From: Niabella ginsenosidivorans
Lineage (GTDB): Bacteria; Bacteroidota; Bacteroidia; Chitinophagales; Chitinophagaceae
DNA length: 64,000 bases
Assembly: GCF_001654455.1 (NCBI RefSeq)
Contig: NZ_CP015772.1
Coordinates: 2,356,001-2,420,000 of the forward strand
Reading direction: 5' to 3'
Position numbers and translations under genes: made by a program. Below the pieces are notes generated by a model. It did no database searches and was not told where the DNA came from. It saw only the letters and a program-made list of their open reading frames with translations. Each line of letters starts with the position of its first letter. Positions within the stretch are counted from its first letter, which is position 1. This document shows positions 50,928 through 64,000 of the stretch, one piece after another.

Positions 50928-52121
50928 TTACTCTTTCAGTTTTGTTAAATCTGTTGATACCGCCAACCATGCCATCATGCCCATGCCTATTTCAATAGCA
51001 TTCTCATCAATATCAAAAGTTGGGGTATGCACACCGGAAACAATCCCCTTTTCTTTATTCATGACACCCAGGCGATAGAAACAACCGGGGATCTGCTGGG
51101 TGTAATATCCAAAGTCTTCAGCACCCATCCGTATTTCTGTTTCTTCTACCCGTTCATGGCCCCAATACTCTTTTGCCTGCTCCAGTGCCTGCCCTGTTAA
51201 TATCTCATTATTATAAACGCTCGGATAGCCAACATCTATGTGAAGATCCAGCGTTCCTCCCATTCCTCTCACCAGGTTCTCAGCAATGCTCCGGATGATC
51301 TCATGCGCCTCAAAACGCCAGGCTTCATTCAGCGCACGGAAGGTTCCCTTTAGTTTCACTTCGTTGGGGATCACATTAGTAGTGGTTCCTCCATTAAAGG
51401 CAGTTATTGACAGCACTGTAGGATTTTGAGGGTTATTTCTCCGGCTGATCACCTGCTGCAAAGCCACCACCAGGTGCGATGCAATCAGGATCGGGTCAAT
51501 ACATAAATTGGGTGCTGCGGCATGCCCCCCTTTTCCTGATATGGTAAAATACAATTCATCCGCACTGGCCATCACCTTTCCGCCTCTGAAGCTTAGTTTG
51601 CCTACCTCCAGCCCCGGATGCACATGCAGCCCCAATATAGCTGCCGGCGCAGGGTCTTCCAACACCCCCTCTTTGATCAAAAGACTGGCACCACCCGGGT
51701 TTTTTTCTTCACCCGGCTGAAAGATAAGCTTTACCGTACCTTCCCATTCCTCTTTTGTCTGGCTTAATATTTTTGCAGCGCCCAGCAAGCAGGATGTATG
51801 CACATCATGCCCGCAGGCATGCATCACCTCTTCGTTAACGGATTTATAAGGCACTTCATTTAATTCCTGTATGGGTAATGCGTCAATATCCGCCCTTAGT
51901 GCAATGATCCTTGCATCCGGGTTTTTTCCCCTGATGAGGCCCACCACACCAGTAGTGGCCTTTATTTCAAAAGGAATGCCCAGGTTGCATAATTGCTGCT
52001 GAATATATTTTGAAGTTTCAAACTCCTGGTAGCTCAATTCCGGATGCGTGTGCAAATGACGCCTTACGGCAATAAATTCCGGGGCGTACTGTTTAGCCAG
52101 CGATTGTATTCTTTTGATCAT
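50928..52121 (-). CDS. M20-family amidohydrolase (aminoacylase/hippurate-hydrolase-like)
   Basis: About 397 residues from ATG 52121 (MIKRIQSLAKQYAPEFIAVR); the 25-residue upstream extension is rejected because TATTTTTG ends 4 bases before this ATG. Motifs: RRHLHTHPELSYQE, IIALRADIDALPIQE, MHACGHDVHTS (zinc ligand), LIFQPGEEKNPGGA (catalytic Glu) and EIRMGAEDFGYY. It hydrolyses N-acyl or N-aminobenzoyl amino acids. Cytosolic. Confidence 0.93.
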   Translation of the reverse strand: MIKRIQSLAKQYAPEFIAVRRHLHTHPELSYQEFETSKYIQQQLCNLGIPFEIKATTGVVGLIRGKNPDARIIALRADIDALPIQELNEVPYKSVNEEVMHACGHDVHTSCLLGAAKILSQTKEEWEGTVKLIFQPGEEKNPGGASLLIKEGVLEDPAPAAILGLHVHPGLEVGKLSFRGGKVMASADELYFTISGKGGHAAAPNLCIDPILIASHLVVALQQVISRRNNPQNPTVLSITAFNGGTTTNVIPNEVKLKGTFRALNEAWRFEAHEIIRSIAENLVRGMGGTLDLHIDVGYPSVYNNEILTGQALEQAKEYWGHERVEETEIRMGAEDFGYYTQQIPGCFYRLGVMNKEKGIVSGVHTPTFDIDENAIEIGMGMMAWLAVSTDLTKLKE

Positions 52122-52359: not shown

Positions 52360-52803
52360 CTACAAACTATCTGATGAAGCAGTGGCCTCAGGGTTTACCT
52401 CAACCACATCGTTCATTAAAAAAACACCACCGGGGAAATAAGGCGCCAGCTTCTTTTGATAGGCCTGCGCGTCCTGACGGGAGGTAAAATTCCCCACTTT
52501 TACCTTATAATAAGGCGACTGGTGCCACATATAGGGCTTGAGCTCCGGGAAGGAGGAGTAGATCTTTGTGCGTGCCGCTATTGCTTCCTGCTTACTGTTG
52601 GTGCTGATTACCAATAAACGATAGCCCGGGGCGGTTCTACGCCTGGTGGAGTTACGGGTAGACACATCATTTACATCCGCCTGCTTTTTAAGCAGCAGAT
52701 CCACCCGGGCATCCTTGTAAACATTTACAGATGCATGATCCGATTGCTGCGCATACAAGCCCGATGAAAGCAATAATAAAAAGGCGGAAATAAGATTCTT
52801 CAT
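52360..52803 (-). CDS. SPOR-domain protein
   Basis: 147 residues with a signal peptide ending near GLYAQQ. A C-terminal SPOR domain (about 60-130) has YRLLVISTNSKQEAIAART and SPYYKVKVGNFTSRQDAQAY. SPOR domains bind denuded peptidoglycan at the septum. No enzymatic domain is present. Probably periplasmic and linked to division or cell-wall remodelling. Confidence 0.9.
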   Translation of the reverse strand: MKNLISAFLLLLSSGLYAQQSDHASVNVYKDARVDLLLKKQADVNDVSTRNSTRRRTAPGYRLLVISTNSKQEAIAARTKIYSSFPELKPYMWHQSPYYKVKVGNFTSRQDAQAYQKKLAPYFPGGVFLMNDVVEVNPEATASSDSL

Positions 52804-53386: not shown

Positions 53387-53408
53387 ATTGTTGGCAAATT
53401 GTTGGCAA
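53387..53408. repeat. Tandem 11-bp direct repeat
   Basis: ATTGTTGGCAA twice in tandem, about 60 bp left of the tRNA fragment. It may be a recombinase-arm site. Confidence 0.55.
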
Positions 53409-53412
53409 ATTT

Positions 53413-53448
53413 GGATAAAAAAGAAAAGGCTCACTTTCGTGAACCTTT
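53413..53448 (-). terminator. Intrinsic terminator after the tRNA fragment
   Basis: On the minus strand, an AAAGGTTCAC / GTGAGCCTTT hairpin (one G-T pair) with a GAAA loop is followed by TCTTTTTT. It lies just downstream of the tRNA-Leu 3' fragment and probably once ended the tRNA transcript. Confidence 0.7.
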
Positions 53449-53467
53449 CCATCTGATTGATCATCAG

Positions 53468-53524
53468 AGCCCCAGGCGGGACTTGAACCCGCACGGACAT
53501 TGCTGCCCACAGGATTTTAAGTCC
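53468..53524 (-). pseudogene. 3' fragment of tRNA-Leu(TAA); probable attachment site
   Basis: The minus strand carries the second half of a leucine tRNA: anticodon loop CTTAAAA with TAA anticodon, a long class II variable arm (GTGGGCAGCAATGTCC), the T-arm GCGGGTTCAAGTCCCGC and an acceptor strand. The 5' half (acceptor, D-arm) is absent: the sequence beyond 53524 is unrelated and AT-rich, and the anticodon stem pairs only partly. Tyrosine recombinases cross over in the anticodon region of tRNA genes and leave such fragments, so this is the distal junction of an integrated element extending to the right. Confidence 0.85.
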
Positions 53525-53649: not shown

Positions 53650-53672
53650 TATGTGCAAATCTATGTGCAAAT
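53650..53672. repeat. 11-bp direct repeat with 12-bp period
   Basis: TATGTGCAAAT occurs twice (53650-53660 and 53662-53672) between the tRNA fragment and the integrase-like gene. It is a candidate recombinase arm-binding site. Confidence 0.55.
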
Positions 53673-53709: not shown

Positions 53710-53796
53710 ATGTTGACAGTTACAATTATTTTAGACACCCGAAGGGTAAAGAAAGAGAACAAATATCCAAATTGCGCCTTTATGAAAAAGGGGTAA
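53710..53796 (+). pseudogene. Frameshifted N-terminal segment of the integrase-like gene
   Basis: From ATG 53710 the frame reads MLTVTIILDTRRVKKENKYP, the usual opening of Bacteroidota tyrosine integrases, and stops at TAA 53794. The expected continuation (LRLYEKGVREYYP) lies in another frame that begins at 53772. One base (or two) has therefore been lost or gained between about 53767 and 53772. Confidence 0.65.
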
Positions 53797-54848
53797 GGGA
53801 ATACTATCCCCTTATCTATGATCTTTCGATACAGGACTATGAGAAACTTTCTGCTTCCCATATTAATGCTGATCTTCAAAAAATCCGCGATGATTTAGAG
53901 ACGATAGAAGTAAATGCAAAAAAAGCGGTTAAAGAGATCAAACCATTTGATATAAAAATATTTGAACAAAATTTTATAAAAAATCATCCTCTCTTTAAAC
54001 AGAAAAAGAAGAAAATCGTAGAAGAAGAAAATGCGTTTGAATTTGATTTTACCCCTTACGAAAAAAGGTTTCGTATTCTTAAAGAAGTCCCTTTAAGCAC
54101 AGATCACATTTCTGCTACATACAAAAAGGTAATTTTGGGTTTAATAGAAGAAAAGAGAATTGGATTGGCGTTGACAACGGATGGCAAGCTTGTCGGACAA
54201 TATGAGAGTATGTACCAGGCTGGAAAGGTTAATGGCTTTAATGGACGAGCAATTGCTGCTGTCGCCAGTGACAAAAAGGGTTATCTTTTTAAGGGGTTTG
54301 TCTGGCAACTGAGCAAGCGAAAAACATTGAAACGGGATACCTTGCCCCTAAAAGAAGAAAAAGACATCATTAATAGAAGTCTAATGAAAAAGCTGGCGAT
54401 AAAACGAACTCCAAAATCTTTACCGGCTATATTGGATCTGTCTGTGAAAACCCGTCCTGACGAGCGATGGAAGGATATTCCGGGTTATGAAGGGCTTTAT
54501 ATGGTTTCCAGTCAAGGAAGGGTAAAGGCTTTAAAAAAGGTGTCTGATGGGAAACAACATAAGTGGTACCCAGAAAGAATAAAACAACTGACTGTCGAGG
54601 TAACGGAAGAACCCTCCGGAAAAATCAAAACAACCACACCGTTGGTAACTTTATGCAAGGACCACAACAAGAAAACCGTGCAGGTCGCACGTTGGGTCTA
54701 TTTTTTATTTGTTGATTCCTTTAATATTAAAGATGCTACGCTGAGGGTATATTACAAGGATGGGGATAATCGAAATATTGATTCGGGTAATCTTGAACTA
54801 AAAAATGCGGCATGGAGCATCAATCGTATGCACCGGTTACATGTTTAA
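53772..54848 (+). CDS. Chimeric protein: integrase arm/core N-terminus joined to NUMOD1, NUMOD4 and HNH-like segments
   Basis: 358 residues in the main frame (TTG start). Residues 1-130 match the N-terminal arm-binding and SAM-like core-binding regions of Bacteroidota tyrosine integrases (LYEKGVREYYPLIYDLSIQD, IKPFDIKIFEQNF, TYKKVILGLIEEKRIGLA). No recombinase catalytic domain follows. Instead residues 134-180 look like a NUMOD1 helix-turn-helix (DGKLVGQYESMYQAG to GFVWQL), 230-256 like NUMOD4 (RWKDIPGYEGLYMVSSQGRV), and 289-345 like an HNH-3 domain whose usual NHxDG is YYKDG, so the key His is missing. NUMOD domains belong to homing endonucleases. The gene sits beside the tRNA scar where an integrase is expected. 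Whether it is active or a decaying fusion is open. Confidence 0.7.
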   Translation: MRLYEKGVREYYPLIYDLSIQDYEKLSASHINADLQKIRDDLETIEVNAKKAVKEIKPFDIKIFEQNFIKNHPLFKQKKKKIVEEENAFEFDFTPYEKRFRILKEVPLSTDHISATYKKVILGLIEEKRIGLALTTDGKLVGQYESMYQAGKVNGFNGRAIAAVASDKKGYLFKGFVWQLSKRKTLKRDTLPLKEEKDIINRSLMKKLAIKRTPKSLPAILDLSVKTRPDERWKDIPGYEGLYMVSSQGRVKALKKVSDGKQHKWYPERIKQLTVEVTEEPSGKIKTTTPLVTLCKDHNKKTVQVARWVYFLFVDSFNIKDATLRVYYKDGDNRNIDSGNLELKNAAWSINRMHRLHV

Positions 54849-55458: not shown

Positions 55459-56355
55459 ATGAAACCAAGAACCCCATGTAGGATGGCGTTGATCCTTTGG
55501 CTATTTGTGGCTTTTACTCAGCATGAAACTTATGGCCAGAACTATAATAATATCCTGAATCACAGAGGTATGGCGACACCAGTAAATGGAGTGAAGATCA
55601 AAACTAACCTACCCTATATCAGCGGTAGTTATATGCCGACGATTTTCATAGATGGTTATAGTTATGGTAAAGCGAAGACGATCAGTCTTAAATTCTCATT
55701 TTATATCTATAACGGTAATTTTATTAGTTCTACAATTTCGTCGTCGGGCGGAGATGTCCCCAAGGTCCAGCTTTCAAATGAGGATAATAAAGTGGTGATC
55801 TTTATCGATAACAAGGTCTATTTCCAGCAACTTACCGTAAGTGCATTTTGTATGGTCAATCCTGCTACCGGGGCTTTTCAAGGGTGGACGGTTGCTGATG
55901 AGGCGATAACGGGAACCAACACTGTTGAAATACCGTATTCCAATGCTTTTGGCGGGGATGTGAATTTTAAAGATGGTATATGGTCCAAGACGGGCAATGT
56001 AGGCATAGGAACGATTACTCCTGCTGAGAAACTTTCTGTAAATGGTAATATCCGTGCAAAAGAAGTAAAAGTAGAAACGGCGAATTGGCCGGACTATGTG
56101 TTCAAACCTTCTTATTCTCTTATGCCCTTAAGTAAAGTAGAAAGCTTTATCAAAGCCAATGGGCATTTACCGGATATCCCATCTGCTAAAGAAATAGAAC
56201 AAAATGGAATGGAAGTAGGAGCTAACCAGGTGGTGTTGCTAAAGAAGATTGAAGAACTGACATTGCATTTGATCGAGATGGAAAAAAAAGTTGAAAATAT
56301 AAGCAAAGATAATGAGCGGATCAAAAAGCAATTAAATCGGCGGCTAAAGCAATAA
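55459..56355 (+). CDS. Secreted protein with tail-fibre-like C-terminus
   Basis: 298 residues; a signal peptide ends near TYGQN (start at 55459 or the ATG at 55483). The first half is beta-rich and unrecognised. The second half has the Bacteroidota tail-fibre pattern: TGNVGIGTITPAEKLSVNG, IRAKEVKVETANWPDYVF, FIKANGHLPDIPSAKEIEQ and a C-terminal coiled coil (VVLLKKIEELTLHLIEMEKK). Such proteins often sit next to Rhs-type genes. It is the first gene of a three-gene cluster; 32 bp separate it from the next. Confidence 0.85.
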   Translation: MKPRTPCRMALILWLFVAFTQHETYGQNYNNILNHRGMATPVNGVKIKTNLPYISGSYMPTIFIDGYSYGKAKTISLKFSFYIYNGNFISSTISSSGGDVPKVQLSNEDNKVVIFIDNKVYFQQLTVSAFCMVNPATGAFQGWTVADEAITGTNTVEIPYSNAFGGDVNFKDGIWSKTGNVGIGTITPAEKLSVNGNIRAKEVKVETANWPDYVFKPSYSLMPLSKVESFIKANGHLPDIPSAKEIEQNGMEVGANQVVLLKKIEELTLHLIEMEKKVENISKDNERIKKQLNRRLKQ

Positions 56356-56387: not shown

Positions 56388-59300
56388 ATGAGAAAGCTAT
56401 TTTTTTTAAATTTGTTCCTGCTTGCTTTTTTAGTAAATGTATATCCTCAAAAGGATAACCCCAAATTTTATCCTCCATCGCCTGAAGCATACGCACTTGG
56501 CAAGTATGGAGATGTCCCGGTAAGTTTATATACAGGCATACCGGATATTAGCATTCCGCTCTATAAGCTTACTGAAAAAGAACTATCTGTGTCAGTTACG
56601 CTATCCTATCATGCTTCAGGCATAAAAATCGACGAAACCTCATCGAATGTGGGCCTGGGATGGGTGATGAATTCGGGAGGGCTGATCACACGTTCTGTCA
56701 GAGGGAAAGCAGAATACCTGGTCAACGGCGTTCTAAAGCCGGACAGATCGAACATCCCCGAATGTACAAATTGTACCAATAATACTGCGGTATCAACATT
56801 CATTAATAACAATGGATTAGCAATGTCGGTGGATGGTGGACTGGATCCGGAACCAGATGTCTTTTATTATAATTTTAACGGGCGAAGCGGAAAATTCTAT
56901 TTTGATAAAAATGGAGTAGCGCAATTGAATAAGGATGAAGCAATTGCTATTTCGTGGAGAGCGGGTTCAAATCCGCAAGAAGAGATTTTTACGATTAAGG
57001 ATGAACTTGGATTTAAATACGAATTTTCTGATCATGAAAAGACATTTTATGGGACCAATGAAGGAGCAAAAGTATCTGCATGGTATTTGTCGAAAATTAC
57101 GTCCCCTGCCGGGAATTCTGTTTTGTTCACTTATGAGGGTAACTCATTTAATGAAACAATTCGATCTTATGCAGATGGGCTTGTAGAGGTTGTAAATGGC
57201 AGTGCAGGAAATATAAACCCGCCATTGAATTACACGAACACTAATACGAATGTCTCCGGTATAAGGTTAAAGAAAATAACAGGCACGTGGGAGGCAATTG
57301 ATTTTATATATGCTGCTACAGCCAGATTGGATTTGCCAGGAGTGCCGAGACTTCAAAAGATCTCAGTAAAAAATGCACAAACCAATCAAGAGATAAAGTA
57401 CTTCAATTTGTATGCAGGTTATTTTGAGGCCAATAATGTCAGAAAATATGACGGAGCTCAACCTGAAAGTAATAAACATCTGAATTACCGGCTTCGATTA
57501 GATTCGCTCGAGGAGCGAAGCGCACTTGATGCAAGTATCGGAGGGGTATACAAGTTCTATTATCTGGGCGATAATGATCCTGCCACAGATGATCCTTATA
57601 CCTTGCCCTATCGGCTAAGTCCTTCTCAGGATTTTTGGGGGTATTATAATTTTACAAAAAATACGCATTTGTTGCCTGGTATCCAGGGACAAATATCGCA
57701 AAATACGCTGTACACATCCTTTTTCCCCGATGCCAGCGAAGAAAGCCTGGGCGGTTCGGCTTTTTTTACACTAGGAGGAGGAGCTGATCGAAGTGCAAAT
57801 GCAGTTGCGGCAAAGGCCGGTATGTTGTCCAGAATCGTATACCCAACGGGAGGTAGAAGCGAATTTACATTTGAGCTTAATGATCAGTCAGTATTCCAAG
57901 GTGGGTTAAGGATTAAGAAGATCAGAAATTTTTCATCGGACAACATTCCTAATGAAATAAATTACAAATACTTCAGTTCACCATCGTCTCAGCAGCTTGA
58001 TCCCATGAAATATAGTTTTCAGTATTTTAATGTTGCCTGGGATGGAGCATATCACCGCCCAATACCTGGCGAATCCGTGCTGAGTACATTTGGGCTTCCT
58101 ACTCCGGCCAGTGCGACCAAATTTGTAAGGATTTCTGCTCAGCCTACAGCAATTCTCGGGAGCCTTAATGATGTTGGCCACTCAGTGGTTGAGGTTTCAC
58201 GGACCGGTAATGGTAAGACAATAAATAGCTTTATCAGTTCTTCATTGTATAGCGATTATGCCACAAGAGACTTGTTTAATGAAGGAACCGCGCAGGAAAA
58301 CTCTCTTGTTGGAAGTTTATATCTCAGTGAAATTCTTGATCCCACGCCCTCAAACGACTATGGATATGTTAGCAAGTATGTTAGTTACGGAGAATTTCCG
58401 TATCCTGAACTGTATCAGAACGAATGGAAAAGGGGGGTTCTGCTTGAAACAAAGACTTATGACCAGTTAGATTCTTTAATACAAACTGAAAATTTTGACT
58501 ACTATCGAACACTAAAAGCGGTCATTCCAGGCTATAAGGTTATACGGGTGGGAACGCCGTCATCAAATGCCTATCTATATACCAAATATTTGTTACCGCA
58601 TGCGTGGTCGCAATTGAAATCGAAGACAACTACGATTTACTACAAAAATGGATTGAATCCGCTTATTACAGAATCTAAATATTATTATGATAACGCAGAA
58701 CATTTACAAGTGACGCGAATAGAAACGATGAACAGCCGCGGCGAAAAACAAACCAGCTACACCAGCTATCCAATGGATTTTGCTTCCGGAACAGATTTTA
58801 TTGATTTAATGAAGACAAATCATTTATGGGCTTATCCGGTAGAAAATGTAACCTATTTGACCAAAGCATCATCGTCGTACATCAGTTCGGGATTAATAAA
58901 AGAATATACTCCCAATACAACCGGGCTGGTTGCAAAAGAATTCAGATTGGAAACGGCAAGGAATATTCCACTTTCAAATTTTAAATTTTCAAACCGGGCC
59001 GCTGGAGTACTGCCAACCACAGGAAGTCCATTAACCTACCAAAAAAATGCGCAATACAAACTCTCTTATCTCTATTCCAGATATGACAGCCGGGGCAATA
59101 TTATTGAAGCACAAAAAGCTGGTGATCAAAGACAAACACTTTTATGGGGCTATAAAGGACAATTTCTTGTCGCCGGAATTGCTGGTAAAGATTTTACAAC
59201 TGTCAGTTCGGTAATTGATACGAGTATTCTGAACAAAGGAGGAAGTAATGAGGCGGCCATGCTAACGGAGCTTGGCAAATTGCGAACTGATAGTCGTACT

Positions 59301-60251
59301 AAAGATGGAGTCGTGACTTCATTTACTTATGACCCCGTGTTCGGATTAATATCCAGGCAGGATGGCGCCGGGCGGACGACCTATTATGAATACGACGGTT
59401 TAGGACGGTTAAGCGTTTCAAAGGATAATGAAAAAAAGGTAATAAAAAAGAATGCTTATCAGTATGCAGATAGGGCGCTTGCAGGTGCTGGAAAATATTT
59501 TTTCAATGAAGAACAAAAGAAGACTTTTTATAAGAAGGATTGTTTGGAACAGGGAACGGCCGGACCAACTGATTATGTGGTTCCCGCCGGTACTTATTTT
59601 TCCGGTATAAGTGTTGAAGATGCCAACCAAATTGCTTGGGACGATATCAACACCAATGGCCAACAGTATGCTAACGAAAACGGCTATTGTACTTATATAA
59701 ATGATGCCATGTCCAGGGAATTTAATAAAACCGACTGTCTCTATGGTACAGGCACATGGGTTAGGTATGGCGTCGGTGCGGGCTGGCATATGTCAACAAT
59801 CAGCAAAGCTGATGCGAATCGTAAGGCCGAACGTGATCTATATTTTAATGGCCCTGTTTACGCCAATATGCATGGACAATGCCAGGGAACTGGTCCCGCC
59901 CAAATTGAGCTGGCAAATGTTTTTCCCAGTTATATGGAACATTATCCGGAGCAAATAAAAGTGGAGTTTCTGAAAAATGGCCTTGTTGAGCAAACTGCTT
60001 ACTATCCTCAAAGCCGGGAATCAAGTACTACAATTTCCTTAACTCACGCCGGGACTTATCAACTTCGGTTTACCATGCCGGACTGGCCATGGTTTCAGAC
60101 GAATTTTTGGGTTTACTATAATTTCTTTTATGGAGTCGATTTGCGGAATGTTTGGAGTAATAATGGGAAAGGGATAATCCTTACTACCGGTGAAGTTACA
60201 TTTGAACAGGGACTTAATTATTCAATTAAAGCTTCCAATTCTACGTTTTAA
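56388..60251 (+). CDS. Large secreted YD-repeat/Rhs-like protein with DUF5977 domains
   Basis: 1287 residues with a signal peptide ending near NVYPQ. The N-terminus (GDVPVSLYTGIPDISIPLYK, VSVTLSYHASGIKI, SSNVGLGWVMNSGG) is typical of Bacteroidota Rhs-related wall proteins. YD-type repeats occur near residue 999 (YYEYDGLGRLSVSKDN). Two DUF5977 modules follow (about 1036-1105 and 1106-1165), each with a Lys-Asp-Cys start and an ending such as YANENGYC. The last 120 residues look like an Ig-like or carbohydrate-binding sandwich. It lacks an RHS-core cleavage site. It probably works with the Rhs protein encoded 58 bp downstream. Confidence 0.87.
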   Translation: MRKLFFLNLFLLAFLVNVYPQKDNPKFYPPSPEAYALGKYGDVPVSLYTGIPDISIPLYKLTEKELSVSVTLSYHASGIKIDETSSNVGLGWVMNSGGLITRSVRGKAEYLVNGVLKPDRSNIPECTNCTNNTAVSTFINNNGLAMSVDGGLDPEPDVFYYNFNGRSGKFYFDKNGVAQLNKDEAIAISWRAGSNPQEEIFTIKDELGFKYEFSDHEKTFYGTNEGAKVSAWYLSKITSPAGNSVLFTYEGNSFNETIRSYADGLVEVVNGSAGNINPPLNYTNTNTNVSGIRLKKITGTWEAIDFIYAATARLDLPGVPRLQKISVKNAQTNQEIKYFNLYAGYFEANNVRKYDGAQPESNKHLNYRLRLDSLEERSALDASIGGVYKFYYLGDNDPATDDPYTLPYRLSPSQDFWGYYNFTKNTHLLPGIQGQISQNTLYTSFFPDASEESLGGSAFFTLGGGADRSANAVAAKAGMLSRIVYPTGGRSEFTFELNDQSVFQGGLRIKKIRNFSSDNIPNEINYKYFSSPSSQQLDPMKYSFQYFNVAWDGAYHRPIPGESVLSTFGLPTPASATKFVRISAQPTAILGSLNDVGHSVVEVSRTGNGKTINSFISSSLYSDYATRDLFNEGTAQENSLVGSLYLSEILDPTPSNDYGYVSKYVSYGEFPYPELYQNEWKRGVLLETKTYDQLDSLIQTENFDYYRTLKAVIPGYKVIRVGTPSSNAYLYTKYLLPHAWSQLKSKTTTIYYKNGLNPLITESKYYYDNAEHLQVTRIETMNSRGEKQTSYTSYPMDFASGTDFIDLMKTNHLWAYPVENVTYLTKASSSYISSGLIKEYTPNTTGLVAKEFRLETARNIPLSNFKFSNRAAGVLPTTGSPLTYQKNAQYKLSYLYSRYDSRGNIIEAQKAGDQRQTLLWGYKGQFLVAGIAGKDFTTVSSVIDTSILNKGGSNEAAMLTELGKLRTDSRTKDGVVTSFTYDPVFGLISRQDGAGRTTYYEYDGLGRLSVSKDNEKKVIKKNAYQYADRALAGAGKYFFNEEQKKTFYKKDCLEQGTAGPTDYVVPAGTYFSGISVEDANQIAWDDINTNGQQYANENGYCTYINDAMSREFNKTDCLYGTGTWVRYGVGAGWHMSTISKADANRKAERDLYFNGPVYANMHGQCQGTGPAQIELANVFPSYMEHYPEQIKVEFLKNGLVEQTAYYPQSRESSTTISLTHAGTYQLRFTMPDWPWFQTNFWVYYNFFYGVDLRNVWSNNGKGIILTTGEVTFEQGLNYSIKASNSTF

Positions 60252-60309: not shown

Positions 60310-63300
60310 ATGCATTTCAATAGATTACCAGTTTTGCTGCTGTTGCTAACAGGAACTATTAACATTCAAGCTCAGAAGCCAACGGATCTGCCAACCTATC
60401 CTACTGGCGTGCCGGTCAATTATATCCGTGAGTGGACGGCGACGGCGCCGGTAACGACGCCGGCGGCCTTGATGCAGGGAAATCTCTTGCAGAGCAAAGA
60501 GACGACGCAGTATTTTGATGGGTTGGGCAGGCCGTTACAAACGGTGGTAAAGAAGGGTTCGATGGTCACCACGACAACGGCGAGTGTGGGAACGGATACG
60601 GCTGGTGCGCGGGACCTGGTAACGCCGGTATTGTATGATGAATTTGGGAGGGAGCAGTATCATTTTTCACCTTTTGCGGCGAACAATGCGGATGGCAATA
60701 CGTCTTTATCAGATGGTTTGTTTAAGATGAACCCCTATGCACAGCAGCAGCAGTTTATGACGGGCAAGTATGGGACATCGCAGGGGGAGGATAATTTTTA
60801 CAGCCAGACGCTTTTTGAAGCCTCGCCGTTAAACCGGGTACTGGAGCAGTTTGCGCCGGGTAAAAGCTGGGCGGGGAGCTATGCGGCCACCACGGAAGCT
60901 ACGCGCCATAGTATCAAGAGCAAATACTGGATCAATACGGCCAGGGACAGTGTGCGGATCTGGGAGGTGACGGACGGTACCCCCGGTGATGGCTCAGGCG
61001 GCACGCCAGCAAATCGTACGGAAAATAACTATAGCGGGCAATCAGAGATAAGCGCAACAGAAAGCATTACATTGGGTAATGGCTTTACCGTACCATCGGG
61101 CAGCAACTTCCGGGCTTATATTACGAGCACCCCCAGTGCACCGGGAGCCATCATCACCAGTACCTATGCGAGCTCCAGGCTGTATGATGCGGGGGAGCTA
61201 TATAAGAAAGTAACGGTAGACGAGGTTGGCCGCCAGGTGATCGAGTTCAAGGACAAGGAAGGGCAGCTGATCCTGAAAAAAGTGCAATTGGAAAGCACAG
61301 CCACAGACAATGGGCTGGGCAAAGGACACTGGGGCTGGTTATGCACCTATTATATCTATGACGACCTGGGGAACCTGCGCTGTGTGATCCAGCCGGAGGG
61401 GGTAAAGACGATGAATGATGCCAGGAACTGGGCATTGACCCCGACCTTACTCAAAGAGCAATGTTTTCGTTATGAATACGATGGCCGGAACCGGATGACA
61501 GTAAAGCAAGTGCCAGGCGCTTCGGAAGTAGCGATGGTGTATAATATCAAAGATCTGCCAGTAATGACCCAGGATGGGAATCTGAGAAATGCCGGTATGT
61601 GGAACTATACCCAATATGATACGCTGAACAGGCCGGTTGCGACGGGGGTGTTCAGTAGTTCAGTAGTTCTTTCTACCCATTGGCAGACGGCGGCTGCCAG
61701 CACCAGTTACCCGACTGCGGCAATGCTTACGGGCGTACAGCCCCTGACGGAGACGTTTTATGATGATTATAGCTGGGTAGGCAAAACACCCTATTCGAAC
61801 GATCTGACAGGTAAAATAAGTGCTACTTTTACCGTGACAGATACTGCAGGCAACCTGCTACCTGTCAGCAATACGATCTGGCCATACGCCCAGAAACCGG
61901 CAATGGACAGCCGTACCAAAGGGATGGTTACGGGCAGCCGGGTAAAGGTTCTCAATAGCGCTGTGTATATCTACACTTTAACGCTCTATGATGATAAAAA
62001 CCGCCCGGTACAGGTAAAAACACTCAATCATACAGGTGGGGTGGATGTAGCCACCACTCAATACAGCTGGGCTGGCCAGCCATTGACGGTACTCAGCCGT
62101 CAAACCAAGGGAGGTGCAGACGCCACTTCTGTATTAACTATAACCAGGAATACTTATGATGCATTGGGCCGTGTGGTAAAGGCGACCAATCAGATCAAGA
62201 GAGATGGGGGGGCATTGAGTGCGGAAAAAGTCCTCGCGATCAATAAATACGATGAGCTGGGTCAGCTAACCACCAAAACATTGGGAGCAACAGATGCCAC
62301 AGGTACAACAGGCGTAGAAAAGCAGGTATATGAATACAATATCCGGGGTTGGCTGCTGGGGATGAACCGGGCTTATGTGAATAGTGCCACGGGAGCAACG
62401 ACCAATTTCTTTGGTTATGACCTGTCCTATGACAAAGCCAATAATAATATAGCGGGTCAAACCAATGTTGCTATCAGCAACTATAGTAACCTTCAATATA
62501 ATGGCAACATAGCAGGTATGAGCTGGCGAGGACAGAGCAACAGCGCACCGATCAGGAGGTACAGTTTCAGTTATGACAATACCAACCGGTTGCTGAAGGC
62601 GGACTTTGGTCAGCTGAGTGGAAGTGCTTATGTAGCTACCACAGCGATGGATTATAGTGTAAAAATGGGCAGTACAGGAACAGATGTCAATGTGGCCTAT
62701 GATTACAATGGTAATATTAAGGGGATGCTGCAAAGAGGTGTGTACAACAATACTGCCATTGATATGGATAAGCTGGTGTATAGTTACCTGCCGGGCAGTA
62801 GTAAGCTGGCTAAGGTCACGGAAACCGGGGTAAACACAAAGACCTATGGGTTGAGTGATTTTAATGACGGAACTAATGGTACAGCTGATGATTATGCGTA
62901 TGACTTAAACGGGAATTTGACAAAAGACCAGAATAAAAGTATCAGTAGTATAACGTATAATATCTTAAATTTACCGGAACAAATCACGGTAACGGGCAAA
63001 GGAACGATCAGTTACCAGTATGATGCGGCAGGTAATAAATTACAGAAGAAGGTAACAGAGGGATCAGCGACAAAGATAACGGATTACCTGGGTGGAATGA
63101 TTTTTGAAAATAGTGTATTACAGCATATAGGCACTGAAGAAGGACGAATGCGTCCGACAACACCAACGGCTACCACATTTGTGACGGATTATTTTCTGAA
63201 AGATCACCTGGGCAATGTCAGAGCAATGGTACAGGAGAATAAAACCTTGCTTGAAGAGACCCATTATTATCCGTTCGGGTTGGTACAAAGAGGAATATCC

Positions 63301-64000
63301 ACGCAGGCCTCAGGGATTTTAGCTAATAAGGATAAAACGTTCCAGGGGCAGAAGTTTGATGATGACTTAGGGCTGAACTATTACAGCTACAAATACCGTA
63401 ATCATGATCCGCAGATAGGGAGGTTTATAGAAATAGACCCATTAAGTCCCAAATATGCACACAATAGCCCCTACGCATTTAGCGAAAACAAGGTAACTAC
63501 CCATATTGAGTTGGAAGGTCTTGAAGGTGAATGGATGGGATTTGTCATAAACAAAGCTCGAAAAGAAATAGAACGAAAAGAAGGACCTAGTGCTGCCAGA
63601 GAATATGATAGAGGAGTGAGAACAGGTGGAGCAATCACGGGTGCTGCGTTAATAGATGTTTTTGTAACTAAAGGTTGGGCTACTAGGATATTACTTGCAT
63701 CACAGACGGCAAGTTTATTTGAACATAATAGGCTTGATCCTAATACTCCTCAGGGGCAAGCACAGCAGCAAAGATTTAAAGATAATGCTACTGATTTGTT
63801 TATATCGGCCGGAACCGGCTATATGTTGGGGAAATCAATCAATGTACTAACATCGTTAATGACAGAGGCCGGAAGTTTAGTTACAAAAACTTTTAGTTCT
63901 AGTTCAATTAGGTTTTCTCAATCTTCTGTTAATGGATTAGATGATATTGTTACATCGATGAAACAAAGTGGATGGAAAGGAGATCCTATTGATATTGTAA
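60310..64000 (+). CDS. DUF6443/RHS-core protein with variable C-terminal tip (3' end outside window)
   Basis: At least 1230 residues, open to the window edge. A signal peptide ends near IQAQKP. A DUF6443 region (about 25-170) contains YFDGLGRPLQTVVKKG and LVTPVLYDEFGREQYHF. Many YD-repeat segments follow. The RHS core ends at about residue 1065, with LKDHLGNVRAMVQ, THYYPFGLVQRG, LNYYSYKYRNHDPQIGRFIE and IDPLSPKYAHNSPYAFSEN. From about residue 1066 (base 63505) the sequence changes to an AT-richer tip with a hydrophobic segment and then RFSQSSVNGLDDIVTSMK. This is the polymorphic-toxin layout, where a core shell carries a replaceable toxic tip. The tip has a ParB-like look (SMKQSGWKGDPIDIV), which is inference. 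Confidence 0.88.
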   Translation, partial: MHFNRLPVLLLLLTGTINIQAQKPTDLPTYPTGVPVNYIREWTATAPVTTPAALMQGNLLQSKETTQYFDGLGRPLQTVVKKGSMVTTTTASVGTDTAGARDLVTPVLYDEFGREQYHFSPFAANNADGNTSLSDGLFKMNPYAQQQQFMTGKYGTSQGEDNFYSQTLFEASPLNRVLEQFAPGKSWAGSYAATTEATRHSIKSKYWINTARDSVRIWEVTDGTPGDGSGGTPANRTENNYSGQSEISATESITLGNGFTVPSGSNFRAYITSTPSAPGAIITSTYASSRLYDAGELYKKVTVDEVGRQVIEFKDKEGQLILKKVQLESTATDNGLGKGHWGWLCTYYIYDDLGNLRCVIQPEGVKTMNDARNWALTPTLLKEQCFRYEYDGRNRMTVKQVPGASEVAMVYNIKDLPVMTQDGNLRNAGMWNYTQYDTLNRPVATGVFSSSVVLSTHWQTAAASTSYPTAAMLTGVQPLTETFYDDYSWVGKTPYSNDLTGKISATFTVTDTAGNLLPVSNTIWPYAQKPAMDSRTKGMVTGSRVKVLNSAVYIYTLTLYDDKNRPVQVKTLNHTGGVDVATTQYSWAGQPLTVLSRQTKGGADATSVLTITRNTYDALGRVVKATNQIKRDGGALSAEKVLAINKYDELGQLTTKTLGATDATGTTGVEKQVYEYNIRGWLLGMNRAYVNSATGATTNFFGYDLSYDKANNNIAGQTNVAISNYSNLQYNGNIAGMSWRGQSNSAPIRRYSFSYDNTNRLLKADFGQLSGSAYVATTAMDYSVKMGSTGTDVNVAYDYNGNIKGMLQRGVYNNTAIDMDKLVYSYLPGSSKLAKVTETGVNTKTYGLSDFNDGTNGTADDYAYDLNGNLTKDQNKSISSITYNILNLPEQITVTGKGTISYQYDAAGNKLQKKVTEGSATKITDYLGGMIFENSVLQHIGTEEGRMRPTTPTATTFVTDYFLKDHLGNVRAMVQENKTLLEETHYYPFGLVQRGISTQASGILANKDKTFQGQKFDDDLGLNYYSYKYRNHDPQIGRFIEIDPLSPKYAHNSPYAFSENKVTTHIELEGLEGEWMGFVINKARKEIERKEGPSAAREYDRGVRTGGAITGAALIDVFVTKGWATRILLASQTASLFEHNRLDPNTPQGQAQQQRFKDNATDLFISAGTGYMLGKSINVLTSLMTEAGSLVTKTFSSSSIRFSQSSVNGLDDIVTSMKQSGWKGDPIDIV

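Follow-up and report, generated by a model that had tools for sequence, protein, structure and literature searches.

In the window, by which we mean the whole 64,000-nucleotide stretch of the Niabella ginsenosidivorans genome that was analysed, about 134 codons resembling a tyrosine integrase are followed, in the same open reading frame, by about 223 codons of a NUMOD1-NUMOD4-HNH-like sequence. We interpreted this frame, with a probability of about 85%, as a gene relic, formed when a deletion fused the integrase gene of an island with a NUMOD/HNH-like gene close by and left that island grounded. The features are collected in Table 1.

Table 1. Features at the left end of the tRNA-Leu island (window positions)
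Feature	Position	Strand	Basis
GTTGGCAAA repeat pair just outside the duplicated tRNA part	53390-53409 (exact copies at 53390 and 53401)	+	
Duplicated 3' part of tRNA-Leu(taa) and sequence just downstream, left attachment-site scar	53440-53524	-	99% identical to G000:C1:2422759-2422843
11-bp direct-repeat pair TATGTGCAAAT, 12 bp apart, candidate arm-type sites	53650-53672	+	
First part of integrase arm domain, other frame	53710-53771	+	residues 2-20 against L038 residues 3-21
Rest of arm domain, linker and first ~18 core-binding residues	53772-54173	+	alignment to L038 integrase
Junction of two unrelated gene pieces	54168-54185	+	match ends, codon view
NUMOD1-like segment and linker	54177-54450	+	alignment to homologues matching NUMOD1
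NUMOD4 motif	54462-54587	+	PF07463, E 9.4e-12, residues 231-272
HNH-like (I-HmuI-like) segment without catalytic Asp-His, Asn retained	54588-54845	+	
Island cargo, 298-aa protein	55459-56355	+	no Pfam match at E 0.01
Island cargo, 1287-aa protein	56388-60251	+	DUF5977 and sub-cut-off RHS repeat match
Island cargo, 1318-aa protein	60310-64000, continuing past the window end to 64266	+	DUF6443/RHS repeat

The fused open reading frame

The original prediction that a single frame joins the N-terminal part of an integrase to a NUMOD/HNH-like part was borne out by the open reading frame list, which contained a frame of 358 aa at 53772-54848 on the plus strand. Its TTG at 53772 is the first in-frame start past the upstream stop. 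The frame is broken near its beginning but otherwise stays open over the junction and through the end of the NUMOD/HNH-like gene.

The closest integrase matches stopped at residues 134-136. The closest NUMOD/HNH-like matches began at residue 135 or 136, and in the closest relatives the C-terminal match extended to residue 353 of the fused frame. One of the eight integrase queries (L006) gave a tblastn alignment that crossed the junction (residues 18-230). When the integrase residues beyond 158 were compared with the second half, the score was below the shuffled mean and was reached by 378 of 500 shuffles. NCBIfam gave no match to the three pieces of the fused frame that were submitted.

The differences from relatives at the three codon positions were 0.39/0.26/0.58 in the integrase piece and 0.38/0.29/0.61 in the NUMOD/HNH-like piece. 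The excess at third positions suggested that both pieces had been coding for much of their history. It is no evidence for selection on the fusion itself.

The integrase piece

The integrase used for comparison (L038:7634-8998) contains, by Pfam, Arm-DNA-bind_5 at residues 9-73, Phage_int_SAM_5 at 141-227 and Phage_integrase at 246-423. Residues 10-134 of the fused frame aligned with its residues 33-158 at 54% identity over 125 codons. The piece had been described as the arm- and core-binding half of an integrase. The arm was supported by homology; the core-binding half was not, since the match ends at L038 residue 158, which leaves about 18 of the 87 residues of that domain.

Pfam gave no arm-domain match in the window frame; by homology the domain is present, divided between two frames. 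The frame that starts with the ATG at 53710 ends after 28 codons and is separate from the frame of the remaining integrase piece. The predicted need for a frame correction was real, and the break lies between about 53760 and 53780.

The catalytic domain of tyrosine recombinases carries the R-H-R-Y set. Eight tyrosine-integrase queries revealed no integrase C-terminal part in the 16.5-kb stretch holding the island (one match at E 0.51 was judged to be noise), and the truncated gene was the only integrase gene that they detected there. Of the six island frames scanned with Pfam, none contained an integrase domain. As predicted, no catalytic part was found in the fused frame, and none was found elsewhere in this stretch. 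The integrase gene is damaged twice, by the N-terminal frame break and by the missing catalytic part. Compared with the tyrosine integrases of Bacteroidota that have Arm-DNA-bind_5, Phage_int_SAM_5 and Phage_integrase (such as L038), the window copy is alike in the arm sequence, the linker and the paired direct repeats upstream; it differs in its frame-broken N terminus, in lacking a catalytic domain and in retaining little of the core-binding domain.

The copies of TATGTGCAAAT lie 60 and 48 bp upstream of the ATG at 53710. Eight relative integrases, which were part of those fetched, some of them closely related and some with estimated starts, were tested for similar repeats. A 10-12-bp repeat pair containing GCAAA was present within 75 bp upstream in seven of them (L007, L008, L009, L011, L012, L038 and L064, with the repeats 11-12 bp apart), and the miss was L080. 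In the control, 126 of 5000 random 260-bp segments had an exact repeat of at least 10 bp that near. These paired repeats are candidate arm-type sites. The shared arrangement places the integrase piece in a native-looking context.

Past the window end, at the opposite end of the island, there is a TGTGCAAAT pair (66710 and 66721), and a fifth TGTGCAAAT copy lies outside the island at 52049. The GTTGGCAAA pair may mark a different or older element at this site, possibly as its arm-type sites.

The NUMOD/HNH-like piece

The order of NUMOD1-, NUMOD4- and HNH-like segments was partly confirmed in the window protein itself and partly through its homologues. NUMOD4 was found by Pfam directly (45.4 bits, against a curated cut-off of 23.4). 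NUMOD1 was unmatched by Pfam in the window protein and was placed by alignment to homologues, in which it scored below the cut-off in L037 (E 0.0047) and L062 (E 0.0027) and above it in L065, L069 and L074. HNH_3 was also unmatched in the window protein, and among the homologues five of the eight scanned gave weak matches below the cut-off (E 0.016-0.066).

The HNH-like segment was recognized by the family profile, which matched I-HmuI (1u3e) at E 5.2e-13. The window protein alone matched 1u3e at just E 0.0098 across 25 residues. An AlphaFold model of the NUMOD/HNH-like half, built with 17 sequences, had a mean pLDDT of 82.9, and Foldseek placed 1u3e first for this model (E 2.7e-6, with TM scores of only 0.35/0.44). 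The fold of the entire fused frame without an alignment reached a mean pLDDT of 35.3 and was not used. The piece resembles the HNH homing endonuclease I-HmuI in its NUMOD-type motif, its HNH-like fold and its conserved Asn. It differs in that the counterparts of Asp74 and His75 are replaced and that integrase sequence is attached.

The closest named relatives were in Taibaiella helva (52% and 51% identity), Chitinophaga eiseniae (44%), a Bacteroidetes metagenome genome (42%) and C. tropicalis (41%), the identities being those of the best tblastn segment per relative. The relatives have two NUMOD4/HNH-like modules with a NUMOD1-like segment in between, and the first module is lost in the window copy. 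The tandem proteins of T. helva, C. eiseniae and C. tropicalis (L081-L083, L085) share the NUMOD1-NUMOD4-HNH-like half, likewise without the catalytic His, whereas the window copy has integrase sequence in place of their first NUMOD4-HNH-like module.

T. helva (G017) also carries a truncated NUMOD/HNH-like gene with stops (L061:7117-7859), about 330 bp downstream of tRNA-Leu(caa). It is 96% identical to the species' own NUMOD/HNH-like gene. Two TTTGCAAAC repeats lie between the tRNA and this remnant. The T. helva remnant matches from near residue 171 and the window copy from near residue 162. A common breakage hot spot in the gene was considered and dropped, two cases being too few.

The catalytic His in the NUMOD/HNH-like family

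In the window protein, Tyr-Tyr stands opposite I-HmuI Asp74 and His75 (numbered along the 1u3e chain in the profile alignment), the columns that we take to be the I-HmuI active site. The comparison was widened to 44 distinct modules, picked by motif from 44 sequences; identical modules, which arose because some genes were retrieved twice, and the T. helva remnant L061 were left out, and one module was unreadable at the His column. None of the 42 readable Bacteroidota modules (the window copy included) had His at the His75 column, in a set that was drawn by similarity to the fused frame or its relatives and is biased to their own subfamily. The single Ligilactobacillus module had it. The Asn was retained in 40 of the 43 readable modules.

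Because the His is also missing in the other 41 readable Bacteroidota modules, its absence from the window copy is, by this alignment, a property of the sampled Bacteroidota family and not local decay. The lack of the catalytic His in the sampled relatives suggested that even an intact NUMOD/HNH-like protein of this kind is probably not an ordinary HNH nuclease. Bacteroidota NUMOD4 proteins in which the Asn is mostly kept and the catalytic His is missing were seen at L081-L100, L102 and L062-L079. Such proteins may be DNA-binding proteins that are annotated as nucleases.

The tRNA-Leu island

The complete tRNA-Leu(taa) (L034:14786-14872, minus strand) lies about 13.3 kb to the right of the scar, beyond the window end. 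The predicted tRNA scar was confirmed, in that 53440-53524 repeats the 3' part of this tRNA gene. A 13.3-kb element sits in the 3' part of tRNA-Leu(taa), and the integrase remains adjoin its left attachment site. Apart from the proteins in Table 1, its cargo includes a 179-aa protein and a helix-turn-helix protein. A 153-aa piece that matches part of an outer-membrane beta-barrel family (L034:13430-13888, window positions of about 65430-65888, past the end), apparently a fragment, was also seen in the island.

The island is flanked by amidohydrolase- and glycosyltransferase-type genes (named by sequence reading), which are 15.2 kb apart here. In two congeners (G005 and G010; L120 and L121), the same two genes are within 3.3 kb of each other and enclose a tRNA-Gly/tRNA-Leu pair and no island. 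A 147-aa gene to the left of the scar (52360-52803) had no match in these two stretches. The other 8 of the 10 congener stretches contained the 147-aa gene and both flanking genes close together, and yielded no complete tRNA. The absence of the gene in the former and of the tRNA in the latter indicated that the neighbourhood has been rearranged within the genus. The empty-site comparison is consistent with the island but does not fix its exact ends.

In 8 of the 10 congener stretches (L116-L125 compared with L034), the glycosyltransferase-type gene is reversed relative to the amidohydrolase-type gene, G000, G005 and G010 having the other orientation. An inversion within the genus seems likely.

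NUMOD/HNH-like genes occurred in varied gene neighbourhoods. RHS/DUF6443-type genes were seen near them at L081, L082, L083, L086, L087, L096, L098 and L079 and in the window (56388-64266). Of 23 named loci, 7 had RHS-type genes close to the NUMOD/HNH-like gene, in genomes where RHS is common (18 match pieces in this one). Serine-recombinase-like sequences, assigned by sequence reading, have a tRNA and a NUMOD/HNH-like gene nearby at L035:6865-8484 (a 539-aa frame) and L079:8820-9346 (broken pieces).

Search for the fusion in other genomes

Matches to the fused frame were found in 22 of 59 genomes of relatives at E 1e-3, a count that includes spurious ones, in 43 of 394 family genomes at E 1e-12 and in 5 of 395 phylum genomes at E 1e-10, this genome being counted in each. 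Matches at all or part of query residues 198-306 in several genomes (E 4e-5 to 9e-4), which are included in the 22, were rejected as relatives: the one in this genome (L002) lies in a 610-aa frame that reads as an arginyl-tRNA synthetase.

The matches formed two groups. Most of those to the integrase part ended near residues 134-138, and the open frames around them were usually 450-490 aa long; those to the NUMOD/HNH-like part started no earlier than residue 132. In the family search (394 genomes), some of the integrase matches extended to residues 150-209. Individual inspection covered 25 loci fetched from the family and phylum searches, seven of which had overlong or slightly overlong matches. 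In 18 of the 25, the N- and C-terminal parts of an integrase lie side by side; the other seven contain a NUMOD/HNH-like gene alone, and none contains both kinds. Two more overlong matches lay outside this set (11-151 in a 452-aa frame and 3-150 in a 457-aa frame), as did the matches without a locus.

No match spanning both halves was seen outside this genome among the 394 family and 395 phylum genomes. Homologues with the same junction, which the original prediction had proposed to look for, were absent from the relative matches seen, the 25 fetched loci included. The scan of genome contigs gave nothing with the single protein and 23 loci with the family alignment A3; the scan of viral contigs gave nothing with the integrase part and 12 loci with A3. 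Among plasmids (2 records) and phages (20 records) no place covered 80% of the query. To date, this genome is the only one in which the integrase-NUMOD/HNH fusion has been seen.

The literature search, which had most subscription journals outside its scope, contained no integrase-NUMOD fusion in the titles and abstract starts among the matches listed. Homing genes are described as recombining and swapping domains with other genes (PMC10448857). The swaps of phage homing genes at boundaries of genetic exchange are alike in that nuclease-associated DNA-binding domains are exchanged by recombination. In the passages available from that source, the examples are T5orf172/CapR-type genes of phages and satellites, and no integrase-NUMOD fusion appears in those passages.

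Origin of the fused frame

We propose that a deletion occurred between the integrase gene of the island and a downstream NUMOD/HNH-like gene on the same strand, and that the remainders were joined in frame. The deletion, or another illegitimate recombination, would have cost the integrase its catalytic two thirds and the NUMOD/HNH-like gene its first NUMOD4-HNH module. The frame change at the N terminus, where the break itself is observed, could have come before or after it. Loss of the catalytic domain would have grounded the island and left a relic product. In the tyrosine integrase family, an island without this domain should not excise by itself.

Several observations favor this reading. 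The two separate sets of relatives meet at one point, and none of the fetched loci holds both kinds of gene. A part of tRNA-Leu is duplicated at the two ends of an island in which no integrase C-terminal part was found, and the tRNA pair of the two congeners lies in a far shorter interval between the same flanking genes. The N terminus of the integrase piece is broken, and another truncated NUMOD/HNH-like copy lies near a tRNA-Leu in T. helva. The original prediction had offered a recombination product in decay as one of two possibilities, and it is this one that was supported, by a fusion in one genome of two unrelated halves with separate relatives, no catalytic half and a frame break. The open frame over the junction would be explained by a fresh in-frame join, but also by selection. 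A genome with both genes intact and adjacent, as a copy from before the deletion, was not found in these searches, and neither was the integrase 3' part.

One alternative is that the frame encodes a functional chimera. Such a protein, made from the TTG at 53772, would bind the arm sites of the island and, through NUMOD, a second DNA site, and could act as a repressor or blocker of related integrases. The 358 open codons, the arm-like repeats kept upstream of the integrase and the fair confidence with which the NUMOD/HNH-like half was modelled (mean pLDDT 82.9) are consistent with this. We consider it unlikely, as the first arm part is out of frame, the first in-frame start past the upstream stop is that TTG, the core-binding domain is nearly gone, and neither the family nor the phylum genomes gave another match spanning both halves. 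A locking protein, in which the integrase part on the arm repeats and the catalytically dead NUMOD-HNH-like part, as a second contact with DNA, would hold the tRNA-Leu site against excision or newcomers that use it, appears quite improbable. The other possibility in the original prediction, a homing-type nuclease with a captured integrase domain, would use that domain to cut attachment sites. The NUMOD4 motif, the I-HmuI-like fold and the location at an attachment site agree with it, but the protein has Tyr-Tyr at the positions of Asp74 and His75, the arm is split, the core-binding domain is nearly gone and the junction recurred in none of the relative matches seen. No His was present in the 42 Bacteroidota modules, and a passage of a review describes the HNH active-site His as absolutely conserved (PMC3943268). 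An active nuclease of this kind is unsupported and, from the sequence, scarcely credible.

Two other origins of the junction were weighed. A NUMOD/HNH-like gene, or a cargo module that included it, may have been inserted into the integrase gene, the 3' part of which would have been lost later. This would fit the varied neighbourhoods of these genes and the domain swaps reported for homing genes (in the passages available of PMC10448857). It is unlikely in view of the island downstream of the fused frame, where no integrase 3' part was found, and of the 5' side of the NUMOD/HNH-like gene, which is itself cut, as a simple insertion would not predict. A misassembly that joined two separate genes would account for a fusion known from one assembly only. 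We judged this very improbable: the genome is a single contig, and neither half was found in it in a further copy by which an assembler might be misled. The other two matches within the genome were the arginyl-tRNA synthetase, identified by its translation, and a distant integrase (27% identity).

Implications

The relic left by the proposed deletion shows how a tRNA island may have been stranded by the loss of its integrase. The paired repeats upstream of these integrases provide a testable guess for their arm sites. If the absence of the His holds in a wider, unbiased set, the annotation 'HNH endonuclease' would be misleading for these NUMOD4 proteins of Bacteroidota, and their role would perhaps be DNA binding only.
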